From Eubacteriales bacterium (GTDB lineage: Bacteria > Bacillota > Clostridia > Oscillospirales > Oscillospiraceae): 64,000 bases of DNA. The notes beneath the pieces were generated by a model. The model saw only the letters and a program-made list of their open reading frames with translations. It ran no database searches and was not told the DNA's origin. This document shows positions 1 through 62,878 of the stretch, piece after piece. Every line of letters begins with the position of its first letter. The stretch's first letter is position 1. A program made the translations under genes and the position numbers. Where the stretch lies: positions 62,001 through 126,000 of the forward strand of contig JAUNNH010000003.1 of the NCBI GenBank assembly GCA_030531505.1, given 5' to 3'.

Positions 1-170
1 CCCTGAAGCCGATCTATCAGGAGTACAAGACCAAAAAGTATCTGGTGGCGGTGTTCTCGTCCGGCACCGAGGACTTGAAAAGCCTGACCTGTGATCTGCT
101 GCGCTACAACCGCGTCCGGCTGCGCGAGCCGGAAAAGCAAAAGGAAAAGGCGCACGATTACGCCAGATAA
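1..170 (+). CDS. 3' end of an unrecognised protein
   Basis: The reading frame is open from base 3 to a TAA at 168-170 and gives 55 C-terminal residues. They are rich in Lys, Arg and Glu and end in EKAHDYAR. The gene starts upstream of the window. No family is recognised from this fragment. It is followed 7 bases later by a strong hairpin, so it is the last gene of a rightward unit, probably cargo of the mobile element. It could equally be a structural or regulatory element protein. Confidence 0.6.
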   Translation, partial: LKPIYQEYKTKKYLVAVFSSGTEDLKSLTCDLLRYNRVRLREPEKQKEKAHDYAR

Positions 171-176
171 AACGTG

Positions 177-202
177 GAGGCTCCGCCGAAAAGCGGAGCC
201 TC
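177..202 (+). terminator. Intrinsic terminator-like hairpin
   Basis: A perfect 10-bp stem (GAGGCTCCGC with its complement) around a CGAAAA loop is followed by TTCGTTGGTTT. It ends the truncated gene and lies between convergent genes, so it may also stop leftward transcription from the NUDIX gene. Confidence 0.8.
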
Positions 203-227
203 TTCGTTGGTTTATGAGGTTTATTGC

Positions 228-734
228 TCAAAAGCTGTCCATTTCAAAGAAATATCCAAGTGTATGGACAAACTTACCGTGATCAAACAACTGTTTTATC
301 TTTGGCTTCTTCATCCAAGCCGTTTGAGCGACCTCTGCTGTTGTGGCTGTTCGAAGATCAACCTGTCCGTCATACTCAAACAACCAGACATCAACAATAT
401 CATAAAATCTGACGCCATCCACAACGCGGCCGACCACAGAATGGATCAGCTTCCCGTCTTTGGGAGACAGTCTCACACCTACTTCCTCCTCTGTCTCGCG
501 GAGCGCTGCGGTGATGCTGTCCTCACCCTTCAACGCAGAGCCGCCGACGCATTCCCATAGGAGCGGATGTATCGGTCGATCTGCGCTGCGCTGTGAGATC
601 AGATACTCACCATTCCTGTTTTTGATCCAGACATGGACAACGAGGTGATAATACCCCTGAGGGATCTCTTCTCCCCGTATGTGCTCACGTCCTGTCAATT
701 CCCGCCGTTCGTTGTATAAATCCCAAACTTCCAC
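228..734 (-). CDS. NUDIX hydrolase
   Basis: A 168-residue protein with a complete Nudix box at residues 65-87 (G-x5-E-x7-RETEEE-x-G), the Mg-binding signature of enzymes that hydrolyse nucleoside diphosphates linked to another moiety. The N-terminal form with a QGYYHLVVHVWI strand resembles the isopentenyl-diphosphate isomerase/YfcD-like branch, so the substrate is not fixed. The start is a GTG at 734-732 with GAGGAG eight bases upstream. It is transcribed leftward, 27 bases beyond the end of the radical SAM gene, and could be the last gene of that operon. Family assignment is firm; substrate is unknown. Confidence 0.93.
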   Translation of the reverse strand: MEVWDLYNERRELTGREHIRGEEIPQGYYHLVVHVWIKNRNGEYLISQRSADRPIHPLLWECVGGSALKGEDSITAALRETEEEVGVRLSPKDGKLIHSVVGRVVDGVRFYDIVDVWLFEYDGQVDLRTATTAEVAQTAWMKKPKIKQLFDHGKFVHTLGYFFEMDSF

Positions 735-760
735 AAGTATACTCCTCGTTCAGCCACAAT

Positions 761-1693
761 CTATTCTCCTCCCGCAGAGACCTCGTTCCAGTGCTTTCCC
801 TGCATCACACCGTCCCGCTCAAAGGCACGGTTGATCGCGTTGAGGACCTGCTTCTTGTCCGCGCTCCAGAGCGGCGCGATCAGCTCACGCTTGGCGCCGT
901 CCCCGGTCAGCCGGTGGATCACCAAGTCGGCCGGGATGGCCTCGACGCAGCTTTCCAACACGCGGATATACTCTTCCAGGGTCAGAACAGAAAACTGTCC
1001 CTTTCGGTAATCCTCCGCCAGATCCGTCCCCTCCAGCACATGCAAAAGTTGGAATTTGATCCCTTCCGCGCCACTTTGCCCGATGGTTCTGGCCGTTTCT
1101 GCCATCATTTCCGGCGTCTCGCCCGGCAGGCCGAGGATCATGTGGACGATCACCTCGATTCCCGCCTCGTGCAGCCGACGCACAGCGTCGTCAAAGACCG
1201 TCAGGGGATAGCCGCGGCGGATGTAGCGAGCGATGGCCTCGTGCACGGTCTGCAGGCCGAGCTCCACCCAGACCGGCTTGACGGCGGTAAGCTCCCTGAG
1301 CAGAGCGACGACTTCCTCCGGCAGGCAATCGGGCCGGGTGCCGATCGACAGAGCGACGACGTCCGGATGCGAAAGCGTCTCCGTGTACAGCGCGCGCAGT
1401 CTTTCCAGCGGTGCATAGGTTCCGGTATAACTCTGATAATAGGCGATGTATTTCTTCCCGCCCTTGTCTGCGACCAGCGTTTTCGCCTGTTCGATCGCGG
1501 CATGGACGTCCTTCCCAACCGGCACCGTGAAGGCGCCGCTCCCGCCGGCGCAGAAGGTGCAGCCGCGCGTATCGAGCGTCCCGTCCCGCGTGGGGCAGGT
1601 GAAGCCGCCGTCCAGGGCGAGCTTGTACACCTTTTCTCCGAAGCGCTGGCGCAGATAAGCGTTCAAGCTTCGATAACGAATCGTATCCGTCAT
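761..1693 (-). CDS. YhcC-type (TIGR01212) radical SAM protein
   Basis: A 310-residue radical SAM enzyme. The N-terminal cysteine motif CPTRDGTLDTRGCTFC (C33, C45, C48) is the atypical spacing of the YhcC/TIGR01212 group and should hold the [4Fe-4S] cluster that cleaves SAM. Later motifs such as the VELGLQT segment and IVHMILGLPGET fit the TIM barrel of this family. The substrate of YhcC proteins is not established. The gene overlaps the stop codon of a 31-codon ORF by ATGA, and the whole leftward set lies downstream of a putative SAM-sensing riboswitch at 2683-2806, a plausible match of ligand and enzyme. Confidence 0.93.
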   Translation of the reverse strand: MTDTIRYRSLNAYLRQRFGEKVYKLALDGGFTCPTRDGTLDTRGCTFCAGGSGAFTVPVGKDVHAAIEQAKTLVADKGGKKYIAYYQSYTGTYAPLERLRALYTETLSHPDVVALSIGTRPDCLPEEVVALLRELTAVKPVWVELGLQTVHEAIARYIRRGYPLTVFDDAVRRLHEAGIEVIVHMILGLPGETPEMMAETARTIGQSGAEGIKFQLLHVLEGTDLAEDYRKGQFSVLTLEEYIRVLESCVEAIPADLVIHRLTGDGAKRELIAPLWSADKKQVLNAINRAFERDGVMQGKHWNEVSAGGE

Positions 1694-1785
1694 GGCGTGA
1701 AGTCAAAACGGAAGATATCGCCGTTCTCCCTGAAGCCGGCGAAATTCTGTCGGGTCAAATCCTGCGCGTTCCAGTTCATATTCAT
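1690..1785 (-). CDS. Possible 31-residue micro-ORF
   Basis: Between the 153-residue unknown gene and the radical SAM gene an ATG-started frame of 31 codons ends in ATGA that overlaps the radical SAM start. The frame is open back to the upstream gene's TAG, and the residues (WNAQDLTRQNFAGF, ending in FRFDFTP) look protein-like rather than random. The nearest ribosome site, AGAGGTG, is about 20 bases before the ATG, which fits a TTG nine bases earlier somewhat better. It may be a translated coupler, or the remnant of a longer protein. Moderate doubt. Confidence 0.35.
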   Translation of the reverse strand: MNMNWNAQDLTRQNFAGFRENGDIFRFDFTP

Positions 1786-1842
1786 GTTCAAAACCCACGG
1801 CGTTTCACCTCTCGCTTCTTTCTGCCGGGCTGTGTGTCTCTC

Positions 1843-2304
1843 CTACCAGCTCATTGACAGCATGACCTTATACCGATTGTTGGAGACCTGGACCTGCCTC
1901 ACTTTTCCGAACAGTCCCTGCTTCGGCATCGTGCTGATGTCTTCGACCATGTTGACACGGGCGCTTCGCATGTCCTGAGCCCGAAATTCCTCCCGGATGT
2001 ATTCCAGGAACTGATCCGCCTCACTGCGTTTCAGAAAGATATACTCGCCCAGGCTCGGCAGGGGAGTTCCTTTGGCTTTGGCCGCTTCATAGTCCTCATC
2101 CCTGTAAATATAGACGAGATGGGACTTCCCCGGTTCCGTTGTCTTGGCCATTAAGGTGCAGAAATGCTCGCCCATCCGTGCCTTGAGCAGGCACAGCTCC
2201 TTGAACTCTTGAACGCTTTTCCTTGCCGTCTCCCGCAGCAAGCGATCCCGATCGCTGTAGTCGATCTGCTTCATCGTGTTTCTCAGCTGATCTTCAAAAC
2301 TCAT
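1843..2304 (-). CDS. Hypothetical protein (153 aa)
   Basis: A soluble, charged protein of 153 residues with no family I recognise. The start chosen is MSFEDQL at 2304, because GGGAGGAG lies six bases upstream; a longer frame to 2373 overlaps the preceding gene. The middle (HLVYIYRDEDYEAAK) and the C-terminal NNRYKVMLSMSW look like alternating beta strands and helices. There is no signal peptide and no cysteine cluster. It is the second gene of the riboswitch-led operon, 13 bases after the 106-residue gene, so its role is probably tied to SAM or methionine status or to the mobile element. Confidence 0.75.
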   Translation of the reverse strand: MSFEDQLRNTMKQIDYSDRDRLLRETARKSVQEFKELCLLKARMGEHFCTLMAKTTEPGKSHLVYIYRDEDYEAAKAKGTPLPSLGEYIFLKRSEADQFLEYIREEFRAQDMRSARVNMVEDISTMPKQGLFGKVRQVQVSNNRYKVMLSMSW

Positions 2305-2317
2305 TTCTGCTCCTCCC

Positions 2318-2638
2318 TCAGTGTCCGTTAAAGTGTGATCGACGGCAGAGATAGTCCTCTTCTCCCGCCGCATATTTTTCGTAATTGACCCGAACAGGCG
2401 TCCCTTTCACGTTTCCGGCAAACGATAAGGTCCAGTTGAACAGGGAGACAGTCCAAACTGTCATATCGCTGTGAAGCGCCATCACATAAAACCATGACAT
2501 CCAGCGCAGGGAACTCCCGTCACTGCAGCGAAAGCCTTCTTCCTCTGCTTGTCGGAGGAATTCTTTCCCTACTTTTTTGTTGTCCAGATAGACCCAGACC
2601 GTTCCTTCTTTTTCCGCCAGTTGCTTCAGTGTACGCAA
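2318..2638 (-). CDS. Hypothetical protein (106 aa), first gene of riboswitch operon
   Basis: An unrecognised 106-residue protein. The start is a TTG at 2638-2636: AAGGAGG lies eight bases before it, while the longer ATG frame to 2731 would run through the terminator and aptamer of the leader. The segment VWVYLDNKKVGKEFLRQAEEEGF resembles small unknown proteins common in gut Firmicute mobile elements (recollection, not searched). The C-terminus is basic (YLCRRSHFNGH). It is the gene directly controlled by the switch at 2683-2806. Confidence 0.75.
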   Translation of the reverse strand: MRTLKQLAEKEGTVWVYLDNKKVGKEFLRQAEEEGFRCSDGSSLRWMSWFYVMALHSDMTVWTVSLFNWTLSFAGNVKGTPVRVNYEKYAAGEEDYLCRRSHFNGH

Positions 2639-2682
2639 TTTCTTGCCCTCCTTGAAAAAAATGTACCTAGTAAGAGGGTAAG

Positions 2683-2707
2683 AAAAAATCCCATCGTCAC
2701 CGATGGG
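2683..2707 (-). terminator. Riboswitch expression-platform terminator
   Basis: Read leftward, CCCATCG-GTGA-CGATGGG forms a perfect 7-bp hairpin followed by ATTTTTT. Its 5' arm can instead pair with CCGATGGG at 2727-2720 to make an 8-bp antiterminator, so the two structures exclude each other. Confidence 0.88.
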
Positions 2708-2806
2708 AGAAAAACACAACCCATCGGTCAAGCTTTAGCACCTTGCCTTTCGGTAGGTTGCTGTGCGGTCACAGAGCTTGTCTCTCACGCACTCTTCATA
2801 GGTTAT
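2708..2806 (-). promoter_or_regulatory. SAM-I-clan riboswitch aptamer, P4-less
   Basis: Read leftward from 2806: P1 is AUAACCUAU (2806-2798) paired with AUGGGUUGU (2724-2716). J1/2 is GAAGAG. P2 (2792-2763) has a GUGCG/CGCAC base, a kink-turn-like UGA...GUGA pair and a GAG-ACAAG-CUC tip. P3 follows in AGCAACC...AAGGUGCUAAA, the most conserved SAM-I core. The loop bases CAAG can pair with CUUG just after CUAAAG, the SAM-I pseudoknot. The P4 hairpin normally found before the P1 3' strand is missing. The P1 3' strand contains the AUGGG needed for the antiterminator, so ligand binding should favour termination (an OFF switch). No search was run; the SAM ligand is inferred. Confidence 0.78.
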
Positions 2807-2810
2807 ATAT

Positions 2811-2839
2811 ATCATAACAACAACTGGCTTTCTTGTCAA
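2811..2839 (-). promoter_or_regulatory. Sigma-A promoter of the riboswitch operon
   Basis: TTGACA (2839-2834), 17-base spacer, TATGAT (2816-2811). Transcription would begin around 2804, exactly at the 5' side of P1 of the aptamer. Confidence 0.85.
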
Positions 2840-2861
2840 GCAGGCAGCTCGACATTTCCTC

Positions 2862-2890
2862 TTGCAATCGCTTTTCGTCTATGATACAAT
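2862..2890 (+). promoter_or_regulatory. Sigma-A promoter of the recombinase gene
   Basis: TTGCAA (2862-2867), 17-base spacer, TACAAT (2885-2890), 37 bases before the recombinase start. It is divergent from the riboswitch promoter about 20 bases away. Confidence 0.7.
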
Positions 2891-2927
2891 ACTATCTATA
2901 AATAAAACAAGAAAGGAGGCGCGAGTT

Positions 2928-5111
2928 GTGACAGAAACCTTCGACATTGCGGGATACTGCCGGATCTCCGTCGATGAAGAGCTGGACCGGGACAATACCT
3001 CGATTGAAAACCAGAAGGCGATCATTGCCGACTTCGTCAAAGAGAAATTCCCCGGCAGCAGCCTGAGCTTCTTTGAAGATCGCGACCGCTCCGGTTACAC
3101 TTTCGAGCAGCGCGAGAGTTATCAGAGGATGCGCAAGGGGCTGCTCAATCACATTTACGACATCCTGGTGGTCAAGGACTTCTCCCGTTTCTCCCGCCGC
3201 AACAGCCGCGGCCTGGTGGAGCTGGAGGATCTGCGCGACGCCGGGGTGCGCATCATCTCCATCGGCGACGGGATCGATTTTCCCAACGACGACGATTGGC
3301 TGAAGATCCAGTTCCAGTTTCTCATTAACGAGATGCCGGTCACGGACGCGTCCAAAAAGGTGCGCGCGGTAGTAAACCGCCGCCAGAAGGACGGCAAGTG
3401 GATCTGCGCCGCGCCCTACGGCTACAAGATCAACGCGCGGCAGGAGTTCGAGGTCGTGCCTACGGAGGCGGAGATCGTGCGCAAGATCTTCCAGCTGTAC
3501 ATCGAGGGCTGGGGCTATAAGCGGATCGCCAATTACCTCACCGACGAGGGCATCCCCACGCCCCGCATGTCCGAGCGCGAGCGCAAGGAGGCCGAGGGCA
3601 AGGAATATAAGCGCGCGGTCAAGCCGGAATGGGCCATCGTCTCCGTGCAGGGGATTTTGGAAAACGACTTTTACATCGGCACGCTACGCCAGAGCAAGTA
3701 CACCCGAAAGAAGATCAACGGCAAGGACGTGAAGAAGGATGAAGACGAGCAGATCGTCATCGAGAACCACCATCAGGCGATCATCGAGTACCGGGACTTC
3801 CGGATCGTGGAGGAGCTGCGGCGCTCGCGCTCCAGGAGCGACTACCGCGGGGTCAAAAAATACGAGAACACCTACACCGGCTTTCTCGTATGCGGCGACT
3901 GCGGCAGCCCGATGTTCTCCATGAGCCGGCCCGATCTGCGGGACGCCTACCGCTGCGGCACCTATCACCGCCGGGGGCTCAAGGGCTGCACCAGCCACTA
4001 TATCCGGGTGGACACGCTGGACGCGCTGCTGAAGGATTATCTCCGCAAGGTGCGCGAGACCTCGGCGGACATGATCGCAAAGCTGCAGGCTGATATCCAG
4101 AAGCAGGACGAAGACCTCGAAGAGAAGGAGACCGCCGCCGACAATATGGAGGAGGTGCTCGCCGGGCTGCAGGAGGAGCTGAAGATCGCCAAGCGGCAGC
4201 GCGTGCGCGATCTGTCGAAGCGGCCGCAGAACGAGGCCATCATCAACCAGACCTACGACGAGATGGAGGCCGATATCGAAAGCCGCATCTCTGCGCTGAG
4301 CAAGCAGATCGAACTGACGAAGGATCGGGAGAACACGATCATCCGCGTCAACCGCGCCGCCAGGACCGCCATCGAGGTTTTCGATGAGATTCTGGAGAAG
4401 GACAAGCTCGATCCGAAGGACTTGCACCTGATCCTCGACAAGATCTACGTCTATGAGGACCACGTGGAAATCAAGCTCAAGGCCGACATCGACAGCATAC
4501 TCCGCTGCGGGATGCTGCCAGAAGGGCAAAAAGAGCCCGAAAAGTTGGAGGAATCGCCGGTAAATTTTAATTTAGGCACGAAAGATAGCTTACAAGTCAC
4601 AACAGTCCAGACCTCGGAGAAGCGTCCGGACAAGGTTTTTCGTGCCAATGTTATCTGTGACGGTGACCCGCTGGAGATATTCACAGACAAGGATGGAGAG
4701 CTGATTTTTAAGAAGTATTCCCCGATCGGAGAGCTGACGGACTTCGCGGCCACGCTCTGCGACAGCCTGCGGCGGGCGACAGACGGCATCGCGGCCGTCT
4801 GCGACCGGGATGCGGTGATCGCGGTGGCGGGGGGCGGGAAGCGGGAGCTCCTCGATCGTCCGATCAGTCCACAGCTGGCGGAGATCATGGAGGGACGCGC
4901 AACCTATCGCAGCAGCGGAGGAGGCGGGATCCCGGCCTCTCCGGCAGACGAGCGCTTCTGCCTGGTGGTCGCGGCGCCGATCCTGACCGAGGGAGATGTG
5001 ATGGGCTGCGTGCTGTTTCTCGCTGCGCCGGGGAGCCCGCCGGCTACGGAGGTGGAATACAAACTGGCTCAGACCGCGGCGCTCTTTCTCGGCAAGCAGA
5101 TGGAGAATTGA
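2928..5111 (+). CDS. Large serine recombinase fused in frame to SpoVT C-terminal region
   Basis: A 727-residue frame from a GTG with AAAGGAGG eight bases upstream. Residues 1-575 are a large serine recombinase: YxRxS with catalytic Ser14, Arg-rich KDFSRFSRR near 83-91, a recombinase domain at about 175-290, a zinc ribbon (C322, C325, C343, C354), then a long coiled coil and DUF4368-like tail of the TnpX type. From G579 (GDPLEIFTDKDGE) to the end, the 149 residues match SpoVT from its residue 31 to its C-terminus, including KKYSPIGEL, DRDAVIAVAGG and FLGKQMEN. Missing are SpoVT residues 1-30, half of the AbrB DNA-binding domain. The fusion is best explained by integration of the element in spoVT. 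Whether the fused tail alters the recombinase is unknown. Confidence 0.95.
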   Translation: MTETFDIAGYCRISVDEELDRDNTSIENQKAIIADFVKEKFPGSSLSFFEDRDRSGYTFEQRESYQRMRKGLLNHIYDILVVKDFSRFSRRNSRGLVELEDLRDAGVRIISIGDGIDFPNDDDWLKIQFQFLINEMPVTDASKKVRAVVNRRQKDGKWICAAPYGYKINARQEFEVVPTEAEIVRKIFQLYIEGWGYKRIANYLTDEGIPTPRMSERERKEAEGKEYKRAVKPEWAIVSVQGILENDFYIGTLRQSKYTRKKINGKDVKKDEDEQIVIENHHQAIIEYRDFRIVEELRRSRSRSDYRGVKKYENTYTGFLVCGDCGSPMFSMSRPDLRDAYRCGTYHRRGLKGCTSHYIRVDTLDALLKDYLRKVRETSADMIAKLQADIQKQDEDLEEKETAADNMEEVLAGLQEELKIAKRQRVRDLSKRPQNEAIINQTYDEMEADIESRISALSKQIELTKDRENTIIRVNRAARTAIEVFDEILEKDKLDPKDLHLILDKIYVYEDHVEIKLKADIDSILRCGMLPEGQKEPEKLEESPVNFNLGTKDSLQVTTVQTSEKRPDKVFRANVICDGDPLEIFTDKDGELIFKKYSPIGELTDFAATLCDSLRRATDGIAAVCDRDAVIAVAGGGKRELLDRPISPQLAEIMEGRATYRSSGGGGIPASPADERFCLVVAAPILTEGDVMGCVLFLAAPGSPPATEVEYKLAQTAALFLGKQMEN
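4575..4665 (+). other. Presumed right attachment junction (attR)
   Basis: Recombinase-like sequence gives way to SpoVT homology here. The stretch around 4560-4610 is AT-rich compared with both sides, and clear SpoVT coding sequence begins at 4662. The crossover most likely lies in 4640-4665, where CTGTGACGGTGACC would be shared with an intact spoVT reading IRxGDP. The core dinucleotide cannot be fixed without the left end. Confidence 0.5.
4662..5111 (+). pseudogene. spoVT: spoVT 3' fragment (GAF domain), 5' part displaced
   Basis: SpoVT is an AbrB-type, sigma-G-dependent transcription factor of the forespore with an N-terminal swapped-hairpin DNA-binding domain and a C-terminal GAF domain. 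The fragment encodes the second half of the first domain and the whole GAF domain, ending at the normal C-terminus (KQMEN). It has no stop, frameshift or own start in view, so it looks freshly interrupted and would be restored by precise excision. The 5' 30 codons should lie at the left end of the element outside the window. Confidence 0.88.
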
Positions 5112-5216: not shown

Positions 5217-6110
5217 ATGTTTGGCAGACGACCGGACGGACGAAGGATCGACGGGATCGATCCTGTTATGAAGATCACACCCTATGTGATGCCCATGCGC
5301 TGCGACGCGCAGGTGTTTCTGAAGCACCGGGCAGATATGGAGATCCTGTCCCGTTATATCCGCAGGCAGAAGAGAGAGAAGAACGAACAGATCTCCTATA
5401 TGCAGATCATCGTGGCGGCCTATGTGCGTGCGATCAGCCGCAACCCGGAGGTCAACCGTTTTATCATGAATAAGCAGCTCTTTGCGCGCAACAACTGCTC
5501 GGCCGCCTTTACCATCCTCAAGGACCCGAGCGACGCGGACAAGGGCGAGGCCGTCGTGAAGATCAAATTCGACCTGACGGATACGCTCTATGACGTGCGC
5601 GACCGCATGGCCGCCGCGGTCGCCGCAAACCGCGGTGATCAGCCTGCGGGCTTCGTGGAAAAGCTGCTGAGCTTCCTCTTCGCGGTGCCGGGACTTGCCA
5701 CGGTGACGGTCGGACTCGTCCGTGTGCTGGACCGCTATGGCCTGGCGCCCGCCGTGCTGATGGAGGAGCTGCCGTTCTACGTCGGGATGTACATCACCAA
5801 CACCGCCTCCATCGGTCTGCACGATGTCAACCATCACCTTTACAACTGGGGGAACGTCGGCTTGTTTCTCGGCATGGGCATGCCCGAGAAGGTGGCCGAG
5901 GTCGAAAACGGCGAGACGCGGATGAAGCGCTACCTGCCTATCGGGATCACCGCCGACGAGCGCGTTTGCTCCGGCGCCCATTATGCCCGCTTTTTCTCAG
6001 ATGTGAAGCGCTATCTGGAGCGCCCGGAATTGCTGGAACTCCCGCCCCAAAAGGTCCGCTTCGACAATGGCTGCGAATATCACCAGCCGAAGCAGGAGCC
6101 GACTGCCTGA
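5217..6110 (+). CDS. E2-like acyltransferase catalytic domain, active site altered
   Basis: A 297-residue protein that matches the catalytic domain of 2-oxoacid dehydrogenase E2 subunits and the chloramphenicol acetyltransferase fold. It starts directly with MFGRRPDGR and has no lipoyl or E1/E3-binding domain, and no E1 or E3 gene is near. The canonical HxxxD(G) near the C-terminus reads D-E248-R-V-C-S252-G, so both the catalytic His and the structural Asp are replaced. Other fold landmarks such as the ARFFSDVKRYLE helix are kept. The start at 5217 follows AAAGGA. It is monocistronic with its own terminator. It may be a CoA- or acyl-binding protein or a noncatalytic scaffold; the role is unknown. 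Confidence 0.85.
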   Translation: MFGRRPDGRRIDGIDPVMKITPYVMPMRCDAQVFLKHRADMEILSRYIRRQKREKNEQISYMQIIVAAYVRAISRNPEVNRFIMNKQLFARNNCSAAFTILKDPSDADKGEAVVKIKFDLTDTLYDVRDRMAAAVAANRGDQPAGFVEKLLSFLFAVPGLATVTVGLVRVLDRYGLAPAVLMEELPFYVGMYITNTASIGLHDVNHHLYNWGNVGLFLGMGMPEKVAEVENGETRMKRYLPIGITADERVCSGAHYARFFSDVKRYLERPELLELPPQKVRFDNGCEYHQPKQEPTA

Positions 6111-24100: not shown

Positions 24101-24877
24101 TTGCAGGGAAAAGTCGAGATCTGCGGCGTGAACACGGCGGCGCTGCCGGTGCTGAAAAGCCCGGAGACGCGCCGGCTGCTCGAGCGGGCACAGCAGGGCG
24201 ACGCCGCGGCCCGAGAGGCGCTCATCACCGGCAATCTTCGTCTTGTGCTGAGTGTGGTACAGAAATTCGCCGGGCGCGGCGAGAGCATGGACGACCTCTT
24301 CCAGGTGGGTGTTATCGGCCTCATCAAGGCCGTGGACTGTTTCGACCTGGACCAGAACGTCCAGTTTTCCACCTACGGTGTTCCCATGATCGCGGGGGAG
24401 CTGCGGCGCTTCCTGCGCGACCACAGCGCGGTGCGCGTCAGCCGCTCGCTGCGTGACACGGCCTATAAGGTGCTGCAGGCCAAGGAAAAGCTGACCGCCG
24501 AGACCGGGCGCGAGCCGGACACGGACAGCATCGCCCGCGCGCTTGGGATCCCGCGGCAGGATGTGGTCTTTGCACTGGAGGCGATCTGCGATCCGGTGAG
24601 TCTCTATGAGCCGGTGTACAGCGATGTGGGCGAGAGCACGACCGTCATGGATCAGATCGGCGATACGCGCAATACCGACGAACACTGGCTTGAGCAGATC
24701 GCACTCGAGGAGGCGATGCACCGCCTGAACGAGCGGGAGAAGCGTATCCTGGCACTGCGCTATTACGACGGCCGTACGCAGATGGAGGTGGCGAAGGCTG
24801 TGGGCATCTCCCAGGCCCAGGTTTCACGGCTGGAGAAAAACGCGATCCGGCAGATCAAAAAGAACATGACGGCATAA
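24101..24877 (+). CDS. sigG: RNA polymerase sporulation sigma factor sigma-G
   Basis: Directs late forespore transcription, including spore coat-binding SASP and germination genes. The 258-residue protein starts at a TTG (MQGKVEICGVNTAALPVLK), the N-terminal signature typical of sigma-G. Region 2 (NLRLVLSVVQKFAGRGESMDDLFQ) and region 4 (RTQMEVAKAVGISQAQVSRLEK) are intact. In Bacilli sigG follows sigE; here it follows a redox operon, with a local promoter and a translational lock. It supports the view that spoVT, a sigma-G regulon member, matters in this organism. Confidence 0.96.
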   Translation: MQGKVEICGVNTAALPVLKSPETRRLLERAQQGDAAAREALITGNLRLVLSVVQKFAGRGESMDDLFQVGVIGLIKAVDCFDLDQNVQFSTYGVPMIAGELRRFLRDHSAVRVSRSLRDTAYKVLQAKEKLTAETGREPDTDSIARALGIPRQDVVFALEAICDPVSLYEPVYSDVGESTTVMDQIGDTRNTDEHWLEQIALEEAMHRLNEREKRILALRYYDGRTQMEVAKAVGISQAQVSRLEKNAIRQIKKNMTA

Positions 24878-61429: not shown

Positions 61430-62878
61430 TCAGTCGTCGCCGAGGGCTTCGAGACCCTTGACGTTGGCGAGCTTTTTGGCTTTGATGTTCTTGACGAGCG
61501 CGGTGAAGACCGTGAAGCTCAGCAGGATCAGCGCGCAGGCGTAAACCGGCAGCGTCCGCCAGGCCTGGGTGGCATTGAGCGTGAGGCCGAGCAGCACGGG
61601 CGTGATGGTCTGCGCCGCCATGCTGGCGGTGTAGTAATAGCCGGTGAACTGCCCGATCTTTTTGGACGAGCAGAGCTCGACCACCATCGGGAAGGAGCAG
61701 TTATGCACGAGCGCCATGCCAAAACCCTTGATGGCCCAGACGGCGAAGAGCAGCGCGGGGAAGGCAAACTCCCCGTTCGCGCCGACGACGCGGCCGCTCG
61801 GCGCTGCAAAGCACATCACGACCAGACCGAGGAAGGTGATGGCGAGGCCGATGGAGATCGTCCACTTGCGGCCGATCCGGTCGGCGATGGAGCCCGCGGT
61901 CGCAAAGCCGACCACCGAGGCGAGACCGCCCACGATCGTCATGATCATCGTGGCGCTCGAGACGGATTTCAAATAGTAGATGACATAGTTGCCGATATAG
62001 GTGCCGAGGGCGTTGTCCGCCATGAACCACAGGAACTCCGCCGCGAGGATCGCGAGCAGCATCCGTCTGTTGGCGGGGGACATGGGACCGTCGTCGTCGA
62101 TGGGGGTCTCCACGGCGGCGAGCTCTTCGCCGCGCGCCATTTCATCCTTCAGCTCCTCGGCGAGCTTGTTCTCACGGATCGTGAAGAACAGCACCAGCGC
62201 CGAGATGACCATCAGCACGGAGGCGATGACGAAGGGCAGCTCGATGGTCCAGACATTGCGCGCCTCGTCGGGGCTGTTGATGTAGTTGGAGAGGACGAGG
62301 AAGATGCCGAGCACCGTGGCGGCGGCACCGCCCAGGTAGCCCATGATGTTGATGATGCCGTTGGCCTTCGCCCGCAGAGGCTTGGGCGTGATGTCCGGCA
62401 TGAGGGCGACGGCGGGGTTGCGGTACATCATCATGAAGAGCAGCACCACGGCCATCATCAGGACCATGCCGAAGACGTTGTTGCGGTGGAAGAAGAGCGG
62501 AATGAAGGGGAAGGCGGCGGCCGCCACGAAGGTGCCCACGAGTATGTAGGGCATGCGCTTGCCGATGGGGCTGCGCGTCCGGTCCGAGAGGCGGCCGAAG
62601 AGCGGCAGCAGGACCAGGGCGGCCAGGTTGTCACAGGCCATGATGATGCCGACGATCCACTGGACCTGCAGAATCTGCTGCTCGTTGCCGCTGCTCTTGA
62701 GTTCATAGGAGGACATATTATACATCCGCCGCGCGAAAATATCCGTCAAAAACGTGGGGCACCAGGAATCATAGACCTGCCAGAGCAGGAGGATGCCGAA
62801 GAAGGCGAAGCCGATCAGGGCGGTCCGCCGGTAGTTGAGCTTGAGCGCGCCGGCCGGCGCGGCGGTTTTTTTGGCCAT
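61430..62878 (-). CDS. MFS transporter, SLC45/GPH-like
   Basis: A 482-residue carrier with 12 membrane segments and a long central loop (about 225-260, acidic). Motifs LFGRLSDRTRSPIGKRMPYILVG and MPDITPKPLRAKANGI match the glycoside-pentoside-hexuronide and SLC45-like sugar carriers. Two ATGs stand in tandem; the second (62878) has the better distance to GGAGAG. No neighbour reveals the substrate. Confidence 0.93.
   Translation of the reverse strand: MAKKTAAPAGALKLNYRRTALIGFAFFGILLLWQVYDSWCPTFLTDIFARRMYNMSSYELKSSGNEQQILQVQWIVGIIMACDNLAALVLLPLFGRLSDRTRSPIGKRMPYILVGTFVAAAAFPFIPLFFHRNNVFGMVLMMAVVLLFMMMYRNPAVALMPDITPKPLRAKANGIINIMGYLGGAAATVLGIFLVLSNYINSPDEARNVWTIELPFVIASVLMVISALVLFFTIRENKLAEELKDEMARGEELAAVETPIDDDGPMSPANRRMLLAILAAEFLWFMADNALGTYIGNYVIYYLKSVSSATMIMTIVGGLASVVGFATAGSIADRIGRKWTISIGLAITFLGLVVMCFAAPSGRVVGANGEFAFPALLFAVWAIKGFGMALVHNCSFPMVVELCSSKKIGQFTGYYYTASMAAQTITPVLLGLTLNATQAWRTLPVYACALILLSFTVFTALVKNIKAKKLANVKGLEALGDD

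Follow-up and report, generated by a model that had tools for sequence, protein, structure and literature searches.

A mobile serine-integrase element splits spoVT in an Oscillospiraceae genome and joins the 3' part of the gene in frame to its integrase

Results

A serine integrase gene fused in frame to the 3' part of spoVT

The DNA analyzed here (the window) is a stretch of 64,000 nucleotides from a Eubacteriales bacterium of the family Oscillospiraceae, positions 62,001–126,000 of contig JAUNNH010000003.1 (C32:62001-126000), in an assembly of 42 contigs that is 74% complete with 4.4% contamination. At window positions 2928–5111 of the plus strand, a single open frame with a GTG start encodes a protein of 727 residues in which a serine integrase is fused in frame to the sporulation regulator SpoVT. 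Pfam domains follow one another in the order Resolvase (PF00239, residues 7–158), Recombinase (PF07508, 178–300), Zn_ribbon_recom (PF13408, 317–373), and SpoVT_C (PF15714, 602–726, E = 2.8e-36). The resolvase catalytic domain, the Recombinase domain, and the zinc ribbon, together with Ser14, which is invariant across 11 aligned members and which we take to be the catalytic serine of the resolvase domain, make the first part a large serine integrase; PHROGs likewise returned an integrase match. In phmmer searches the nearest solved structures were the SPbeta integrase YokA for residues 54–420 (9dxh, E = 5e-21) and SpoVT for residues 567–726 (2w1t). The match to the SpoVT family TIGR02851 begins at residue 567 and scores 148 bits, under the full-length cut-off of 236, as expected because only part of the protein is matched. 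As the first-pass annotation of the window had read it, the last 149 codons (residues 579–727) are SpoVT residues 31–179 and close at SpoVT's own stop. A promoter for the integrase was read by eye against the sigma-A consensus (Table 1).

The 5' part of spoVT lies at the far end of the element

The first-pass annotation had taken the fusion to mean that a serine-recombinase element interrupts spoVT, and had predicted a 5' fragment of about 30 codons upstream of window base 1 and a junction at about position 4660. A query with the N-terminal part of SpoVT matched residues 1–37 with 86% identity at C32:45437-45547, on the plus strand; the fragment lies 16.5 kb ahead of window base 1, on the contig and strand of the fusion. 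Its sequence, MKATGIVRRIDDLGRVVIPKEIRRTMRIREGDP, continues in frame for 25 non-SpoVT residues and a stop. A 9-bp core, GGTGACCCG, is present exactly in both halves, at C32:45527-45535 and at C32:66662-66670 (window 4662-4670), and when the halves are joined at this core an intact, in-frame SpoVT of 179 residues results. The fragment, the core, and the 179-residue join bear out the interruption of spoVT, and excision at the core would restore the gene exactly in frame. The DNA from core to core measures 21,135 bp (C32:45527-66661), plus the repeated 9-bp core, and has a GC content of 0.48 versus 0.59 in the flanks.

Relatives with an empty site exist as well, so that neither of the two findings named beforehand as speaking against an interruption, a missing 5' fragment or a lack of empty sites, was obtained. 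At least 45 further genomes of the genus have a SpoVT_C match without the integrase. One relative (G013, locus L212) has an uninterrupted spoVT of 179 residues and is colinear with the window locus on both sides: matches to prfB and prs of the window's right flank (both 96% identical) lie on one side of the gene, and matches to left-flank genes, the nearest 91% identical, on the other. The counterpart of window 5217-6110 is missing from this locus, and the roughly 5 kb immediately to the left of spoVT differ. When longer stretches from two other genomes, G065 and G044, were compared with the window locus, no common neighbors were found beside spoVT, and the neighbors of the window's spoVT were not found in a first set of intact spoVT loci taken with 1.5-kb flanks.

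Both ends of the element are in-frame chimeras

Attachment sites of the host and of the free element are referred to as attB and attP, and the left and right junctions as attL and attR. Both junctions are in-frame chimeras. In 11 of the 12 complete elements of the family (all except that of G068), the left end prolongs the SpoVT frame into a similar peptide, which in the window's element is SQTTLETWQKFSFSMLDLAKRMGWE. The stop of this tail falls after 24–28 codons in all 40 left ends used; three of the 43 distinct copies were left out, namely that of G068, whose left end is deleted, that of G034, which has no tail, and one degenerate copy of G179. The ratio of nonsynonymous to synonymous variation (pN/pS) in tail codons 6–22, beyond the attP arm, is 0.35 in frame (0.32–0.38 in a bootstrap over sequences), compared with 0.98 and 1.46 when the alternative frames are read, while codons 1–5, which form the attP arm, give 0.82. 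Past base 90 the majority-base identity of the left ends drops to 0.44. As both chimeras are read in the Gly-Asp-Pro frame of the core, the excised circle would encode an integrase ending in the tail. The shared frame and the constrained tail thus place attP, in all likelihood, inside the integrase gene, so that integration would exchange the C termini of integrase and SpoVT in both directions. While the placing of attP and the reciprocal nature of the swap are new, the first-pass annotation had already pointed out that excision would change the recombinase's own C terminus, and that remark gains substance from the conserved tail found in frame at the opposite end.

We reconstructed attP by taking its left side from attR and its right side from attL, in a comparison of 19 rows from 18 genomes (G049 is represented twice). 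The site has a dyad that matches at 17 of 22 positions in the window's element, at 13–17 positions in 17 of the 18 genomes, and at 11 in G068; a control in which the center was slid averaged 4.9 and reached at most 12 of 22 (360 trials). The reconstructed attB, at spoVT codons 31–33 (Gly-Asp-Pro), scores 6–9 of 20. A mismatch between attL and attR falls on the wobble base of the Gly codon in G062, G492, and G500, and on that of the Pro codon in G054, G082, G226, G492, G493, G500, and G496. These differences, compared without the hosts' uninterrupted genes, fit a crossover in GACCC, between the Gly and Pro wobble bases.

The element belongs to a mobile family

A total of 473 relatives were found across 84,980 species, and the best 80 of these were analyzed. 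In-frame fusion to SpoVT_C was observed in 76 of the 80, two of which run off the contig inside SpoVT_C; among the remaining four, three meet a contig end first and one (L137) loses the frame. Within the genus, at least 16 of 101 genomes have the element: an integrase sequence is in frame with SpoVT_C in 15 of them (the integrase of G062 is cut by a contig end, and that of G037 is broken into two frames), and the sequence of the 16th, G065, is cut just upstream of the core. The family is found in many bacteria of the gut and the rumen. Named isolates also carry it, namely Butyricicoccus pullicaecorum DSM 23266, Flintibacter muris DSM 110149, Oscillibacter valericigenes An411, Flavonifractor An100 and An306, Pseudoflavonifractor An85, Lachnoclostridium MSJ-17, and Ruminococcaceae bacterium P7. 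With a query made of SpoVT residues 1–33 plus the tail, and matches required to reach at least position 52, the left junction was detected in at least 52 of 400 genomes and at least 28 of 106 genera of the host family, relics included. Twelve elements, 12.2–27.1 kb long, have both ends on one contig in the expected order; in G177 the ends lie about 40 kb apart.

The integrase and the SpoVT part of these frames have different histories. When 81 sequences were compared (including one duplicate, L139 being the same as G250), 102 of the 152 integrase pairs that are at least 85% identical had SpoVT_C parts no more than 75% identical; for L117 and L124, the integrases are 94% identical and the SpoVT_C parts 42%. 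Such discordance indicates that the integrase moves among hosts and in each one joins the resident spoVT. The cargo changes as well and, across the family, includes Druantia, PglZ (BREX-type), Mza, and methyltransferase genes. We conclude that the family moves between species and carries interchangeable cargo.

A small open reading frame (ORF) of about 85 residues, orfX, lies upstream of the integrase in all 12 complete elements. Among 55 relatives whose upstream sequence extends for 3 kb or more, 51 have it; in 22 it lies within 300 bp of the integrase, and in 49 it is encoded on the same strand as the integrase. orfX has no Pfam or PHROG match.

In G072 (contig C159; L083, L071), an integrase 89% identical, with orfX just upstream, is cut by a contig end; the genome has an intact spoVT, and no attL was found in it. 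This integrase may be an unintegrated copy or a contaminant.

Integration, excision, and the fate of spoVT

The feature is real and its anatomy is secure: a mobile serine-integrase element sits in a sporulation gene. Very probably, it is an integrative element with attB in spoVT and attP in its own integrase gene, whose crossover creates the two in-frame chimeras. A single crossover in the core would yield the attL chimera, consisting of the host promoter, SpoVT residues 1–33, and an integrase tail of 24–28 residues, and at the same time the attR chimera of integrase body and SpoVT residues 31–179. An integrated element would leave SpoVT severed from its DNA-binding domain and hence inactive. 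Excision would regenerate an intact spoVT and a circle encoding the integrase with its native tail; the most likely agents are the integrase and, as directionality factor, the neighboring orfX protein.

Several points weigh against this scheme. The excised circle was not seen: a junction-peptide search of 102 genus genomes returned attL- and attR-type matches only; a pattern search for attP, confined to the TCNCTGA variant, gave one match in 400 genomes, by eye a methionyl-tRNA formyltransferase-like gene; and a scan of viral contigs for attP gave one unrelated chance match. No relaxase was recognized in the window's element. We infer that the tail belongs to the integrase from its frame and constraint, and a role for orfX as a recombination directionality factor is suggested as a guess from its size, place, and constancy near these integrases.

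In G401 (L203, L204), the att core marks the end of contig C5 and the start of contig C9, and the attL contig is unbroken there; this could reflect a mixed population of excised and integrated forms or an ordinary gap.

What the arrangement does for the host is less certain. The account we rate highest, at close to even odds, is that spoVT serves simply as a landing site: the gene is lost as attB, the loss is tolerated by hosts that rarely or never sporulate, and the C-terminal swap is a by-product. The patchy spread of the element is in line with this, as are genomes in which spoVT is broken in other ways. G034 (L069, near 4250) has no element; its spoVT is frameshifted by the loss of about 40 bp directly following GGTGACCCG, which might be the trace of an imprecise excision. 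In G030 (L219), a 17-bp duplication puts spoVT out of frame, and attL relics lie upstream. In G496 (L194, near 2168) and G497 (L196, near 2908), the gene is also cut near codon 10, where it is preceded by different upstream DNA whose end resembles TTGACACA in both genomes; spoVT may thus contain a second integration site. Flintibacter muris DSM 110149 (L122), too, has a second break near codon 10. None of these four breaks is mendable by excision of the element, and loss of spoVT may therefore be tolerated. In SpoVT_C, pN/pS is somewhat higher in fused copies (0.34, n = 15) than in intact ones (0.25, n = 14), a contrast that says little either way, as most of the divergence may predate the insertions. 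The type strain of O. valericigenes, which lies outside the genomes examined, is reported in the accessible text of one paper to be non-sporulating despite its sporulation sigma factors (PMC3558957). Against mere loss stand the constraint on the tail as protein, which argues that the arrangement is not simply neutral for the element, and the apparent retention of sporulation genes by the hosts. So do six genomes, G039 (L215), G043 (L216), G084 (L217), G179 (L198), G271 (L202), and G461 (L189), in which an intact spoVT is preceded by attL relics or tail fragments, a picture that suggests recovery of the gene; a seventh genome with upstream relics, G030, is not counted as its spoVT is frameshifted. 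These arrays comprise one to three attL chimeras or tail fragments, spoVT has its own promoter and start, and no integrase or orfX was found in the stretches searched.

Two further observations concern such arrays. G043 has a repeat, 99.9% identical, of upstream host DNA that spans at least 1.5 kb. G040 (L057) has two tandem attL chimeras near 3236 and 5499, separated by 2.3 kb; the first has lost its ATG and therefore seems to be an older relic.

The first-pass annotation had inferred regulated excision in the manner of the skin element, with a tolerated loss of SpoVT as the alternative. In such a scheme, excision on cue during sporulation would let the forespore make SpoVT; because the spore passes on the forespore genome, it would also have to retain the circle, which would insert again once the spore had germinated. 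This idea is attractive, and excision would restore spoVT exactly in frame; we nonetheless consider it doubtful, and less probable than the loss of spoVT just described. SpoVT is made under sigma-G and, according to the accessible text of one study, is required to complete sporulation in Bacillus cereus (PMC5061766). SpoIVA was detected in 25 of 28 carriers, and the genomes that lack a match, that of the window among them, are 64%–75% complete. A scan with a sigma-G consensus detected a sigma-G-like promoter in 16 of 44 attL copies (the G034 deletion allele included) and 9 of 16 intact genes versus 8 of 3,000 random stretches. SigG-like matches of 387–437 bits were obtained in 18 of the 28 carriers, including the window's genome, none above the cut-off of 457. 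No second SpoVT_C was found at E = 1e-15 in the one-contig genomes G226 and G177, nor in the window's own genome, which is 74% complete. On the other side, no excision was seen in the searches made. The element is patchy and spreading rather than fixed, with variable cargo, and spoVT is otherwise broken in the four genomes described above, both of which weaken the comparison with skin; in addition, known cases act in the mother cell wherever the accessible text names the compartment (PMC5595907).

Separately, the window contains a SigG-like sigma factor gene at 24110-24865, which scores 395 bits, below the curated cut-off of 457.

A bolder version, which we regard as unlikely, is that the integrase encodes its own state. 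The tail form made from the circle would integrate; the integrated form would end in the GAF-type sensing domain of SpoVT, with the tail transcribed from the spoVT forespore promoter as part of a chimera of 57–61 residues. The swap and orfX together would set directionality, perhaps with excision timed to sporulation, giving a reversible switch that is heritable through the forespore rather than confined to a doomed mother cell.

In contrast to these accounts, a stable, vertically inherited fusion gene, in which the SpoVT domain would regulate the recombinase, is most improbable: in-frame fusion in nearly all relatives analyzed (76 of 80) would be expected of it, but the other half of spoVT lies at the far end of the element, relatives have an uninterrupted spoVT, and the recombinase and SpoVT_C histories differ; we rejected it on the split gene and the discordant histories. 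An artefact of assembly or binning, to which a fragmented genome with some contamination gives an opening, can be dismissed almost entirely, as the same junctions and core recur in many independent assemblies, among them the one-contig G226 and the named isolates.

Discussion

Several intervening elements are known to split sporulation genes: skin in sigK, SPbeta in spsM, gin in gerE, vfbin in spoVFB, and yin in yabG; a skin element is known from C. difficile as well. In the accessible parts of the reports, they likewise bear a recombinase and restore the gene in frame (PMC5595907, PMC10747680), and gin likewise has 9 bp in common with its target, inside an inverted repeat (PMC5595907). The spoVT family differs from them in that it targets a forespore regulator and has its putative attP inside the integrase gene, and in that its excision is a prediction. 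Whereas those are single or few cases, the spoVT family is patchy, mobile, of variable cargo, and present in many species. Two traits make it unusual: it strikes a forespore regulator, and integrase and target gene exchange their ends reciprocally in frame.

The nearest integrase with a solved structure, SprA (YokA) of SPbeta (9dxh), is a large serine integrase too, and a joined chain of YokA with the SPbeta directionality factor SprB (YotN), 9dxd, was among the same structure matches. SPbeta is a phage in spsM; the integrase of the spoVT element is joined naturally to a domain of the target gene, not to a directionality factor. Another parallel is the integration-dependent immunity of mycobacteriophage BPs, in which, as far as the accessible text describes it, attP also lies inside an element gene and integration alters the C terminus of the product and hence its behavior (PMC4557955). 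The spoVT element shares this arrangement of attP in an element gene and a C terminus altered by integration; in BPs it is a repressor that is shortened, while here the integrase acquires a host domain of 149 residues, with a reciprocal change in the host gene. Integrative mobilizable elements and defense islands likewise use site-specific large serine integrases. Movement between hosts is evident for the spoVT family, and a relaxase occurs in 5 of its 12 complete elements, though none was recognized in that of the window.

The main text of a large survey of such recombinases and their targets does not contain the word spoVT (PMC10083194). A literature search, made mostly without subscription papers, found no paper in which spoVT and serine recombinase occur together, and among the titles and abstract openings listed none reports an element in spoVT.

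Interrupted sporulation genes have been known from a handful of elements, and here one target, spoVT, is met by a mobile family. This may bear on gut bacteria that have sporulation genes yet have not been seen forming spores. The reciprocal exchange of C termini offers a natural test system for an integrase sensing its integrated versus free state, and the family provides integrases that share one defined attB, along with a conserved candidate for their directionality factor. It also ties the carriage of defense genes to a developmental gene of the host.

Cargo and features of the element in the window

From left to right, the window's element encodes a SWIM-domain protein, AbiEi, AbiEii, a superfamily 1 helicase, and a Druantia-like block, followed by orfX, a Nudix protein, MnmL/YtqA, two unmatched ORFs, and the integrase. 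Most of this cargo precedes window base 1; the features inside the window are listed in Table 1. In the Druantia-like block (L015:6689-17204), PADLOC recognized DruE1 (1,729 bits) and, weakly, DruD1, next to two large proteins that were unmatched or weakly matched. No match to virion families was obtained among ten element proteins run against PHROGs, a set that excludes DruE, Nudix, and MnmL.

Table 1. Features of the spoVT element and its right-hand junction (window coordinates)
Feature	Position	Strand	Basis
Right-hand part of the 21,135-bp element (left 16.5 kb precede window base 1)	1..4670	+	Core repeat, joined frame
orfX, 3' part (84 residues; start 85 bases before the window, C32:61916), candidate directionality factor	1..170	+	Conservation
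Nudix hydrolase-like gene, cargo	228..734	-	NCBIfam, below curated cut-offs
MnmL/YtqA tRNA-modification radical SAM gene, cargo	761..1693	-	TIGR01212, 322 bits
Unmatched ORF, cargo	1843..2373	-	No match in Pfam, PADLOC, NCBIfam, PHROGs
Unmatched ORF, cargo	2318..2731	-	No match in Pfam, PADLOC, NCBIfam, PHROGs
Sigma-A-like promoter of integrase (TTGCAA, 17 bases, TACAAT)	2862..2890	+	Read by eye
Large serine integrase up to the core, 578 codons	2928..4661	+	Pfam and PHROG matches; invariant Ser14
attP-derived left arm at attR (CCAATGTTATCTGTGAC), half of attP dyad	4645..4661	+	att comparison
9-bp core GGTGACCCG, common to the spoVT 5' fragment	4662..4670	+	Core repeat
spoVT 3' part, SpoVT residues 31-179 and stop	4662..5111	+	PF15714; PDB 2w1t

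The element of G496 (L194/L195) also has a Druantia-like block, with DruE1 at 1,745 bits and neighbors that PADLOC did not recognize or matched weakly. The MnmL/YtqA-type gene in the window is a housekeeping-looking gene inside a mobile element.

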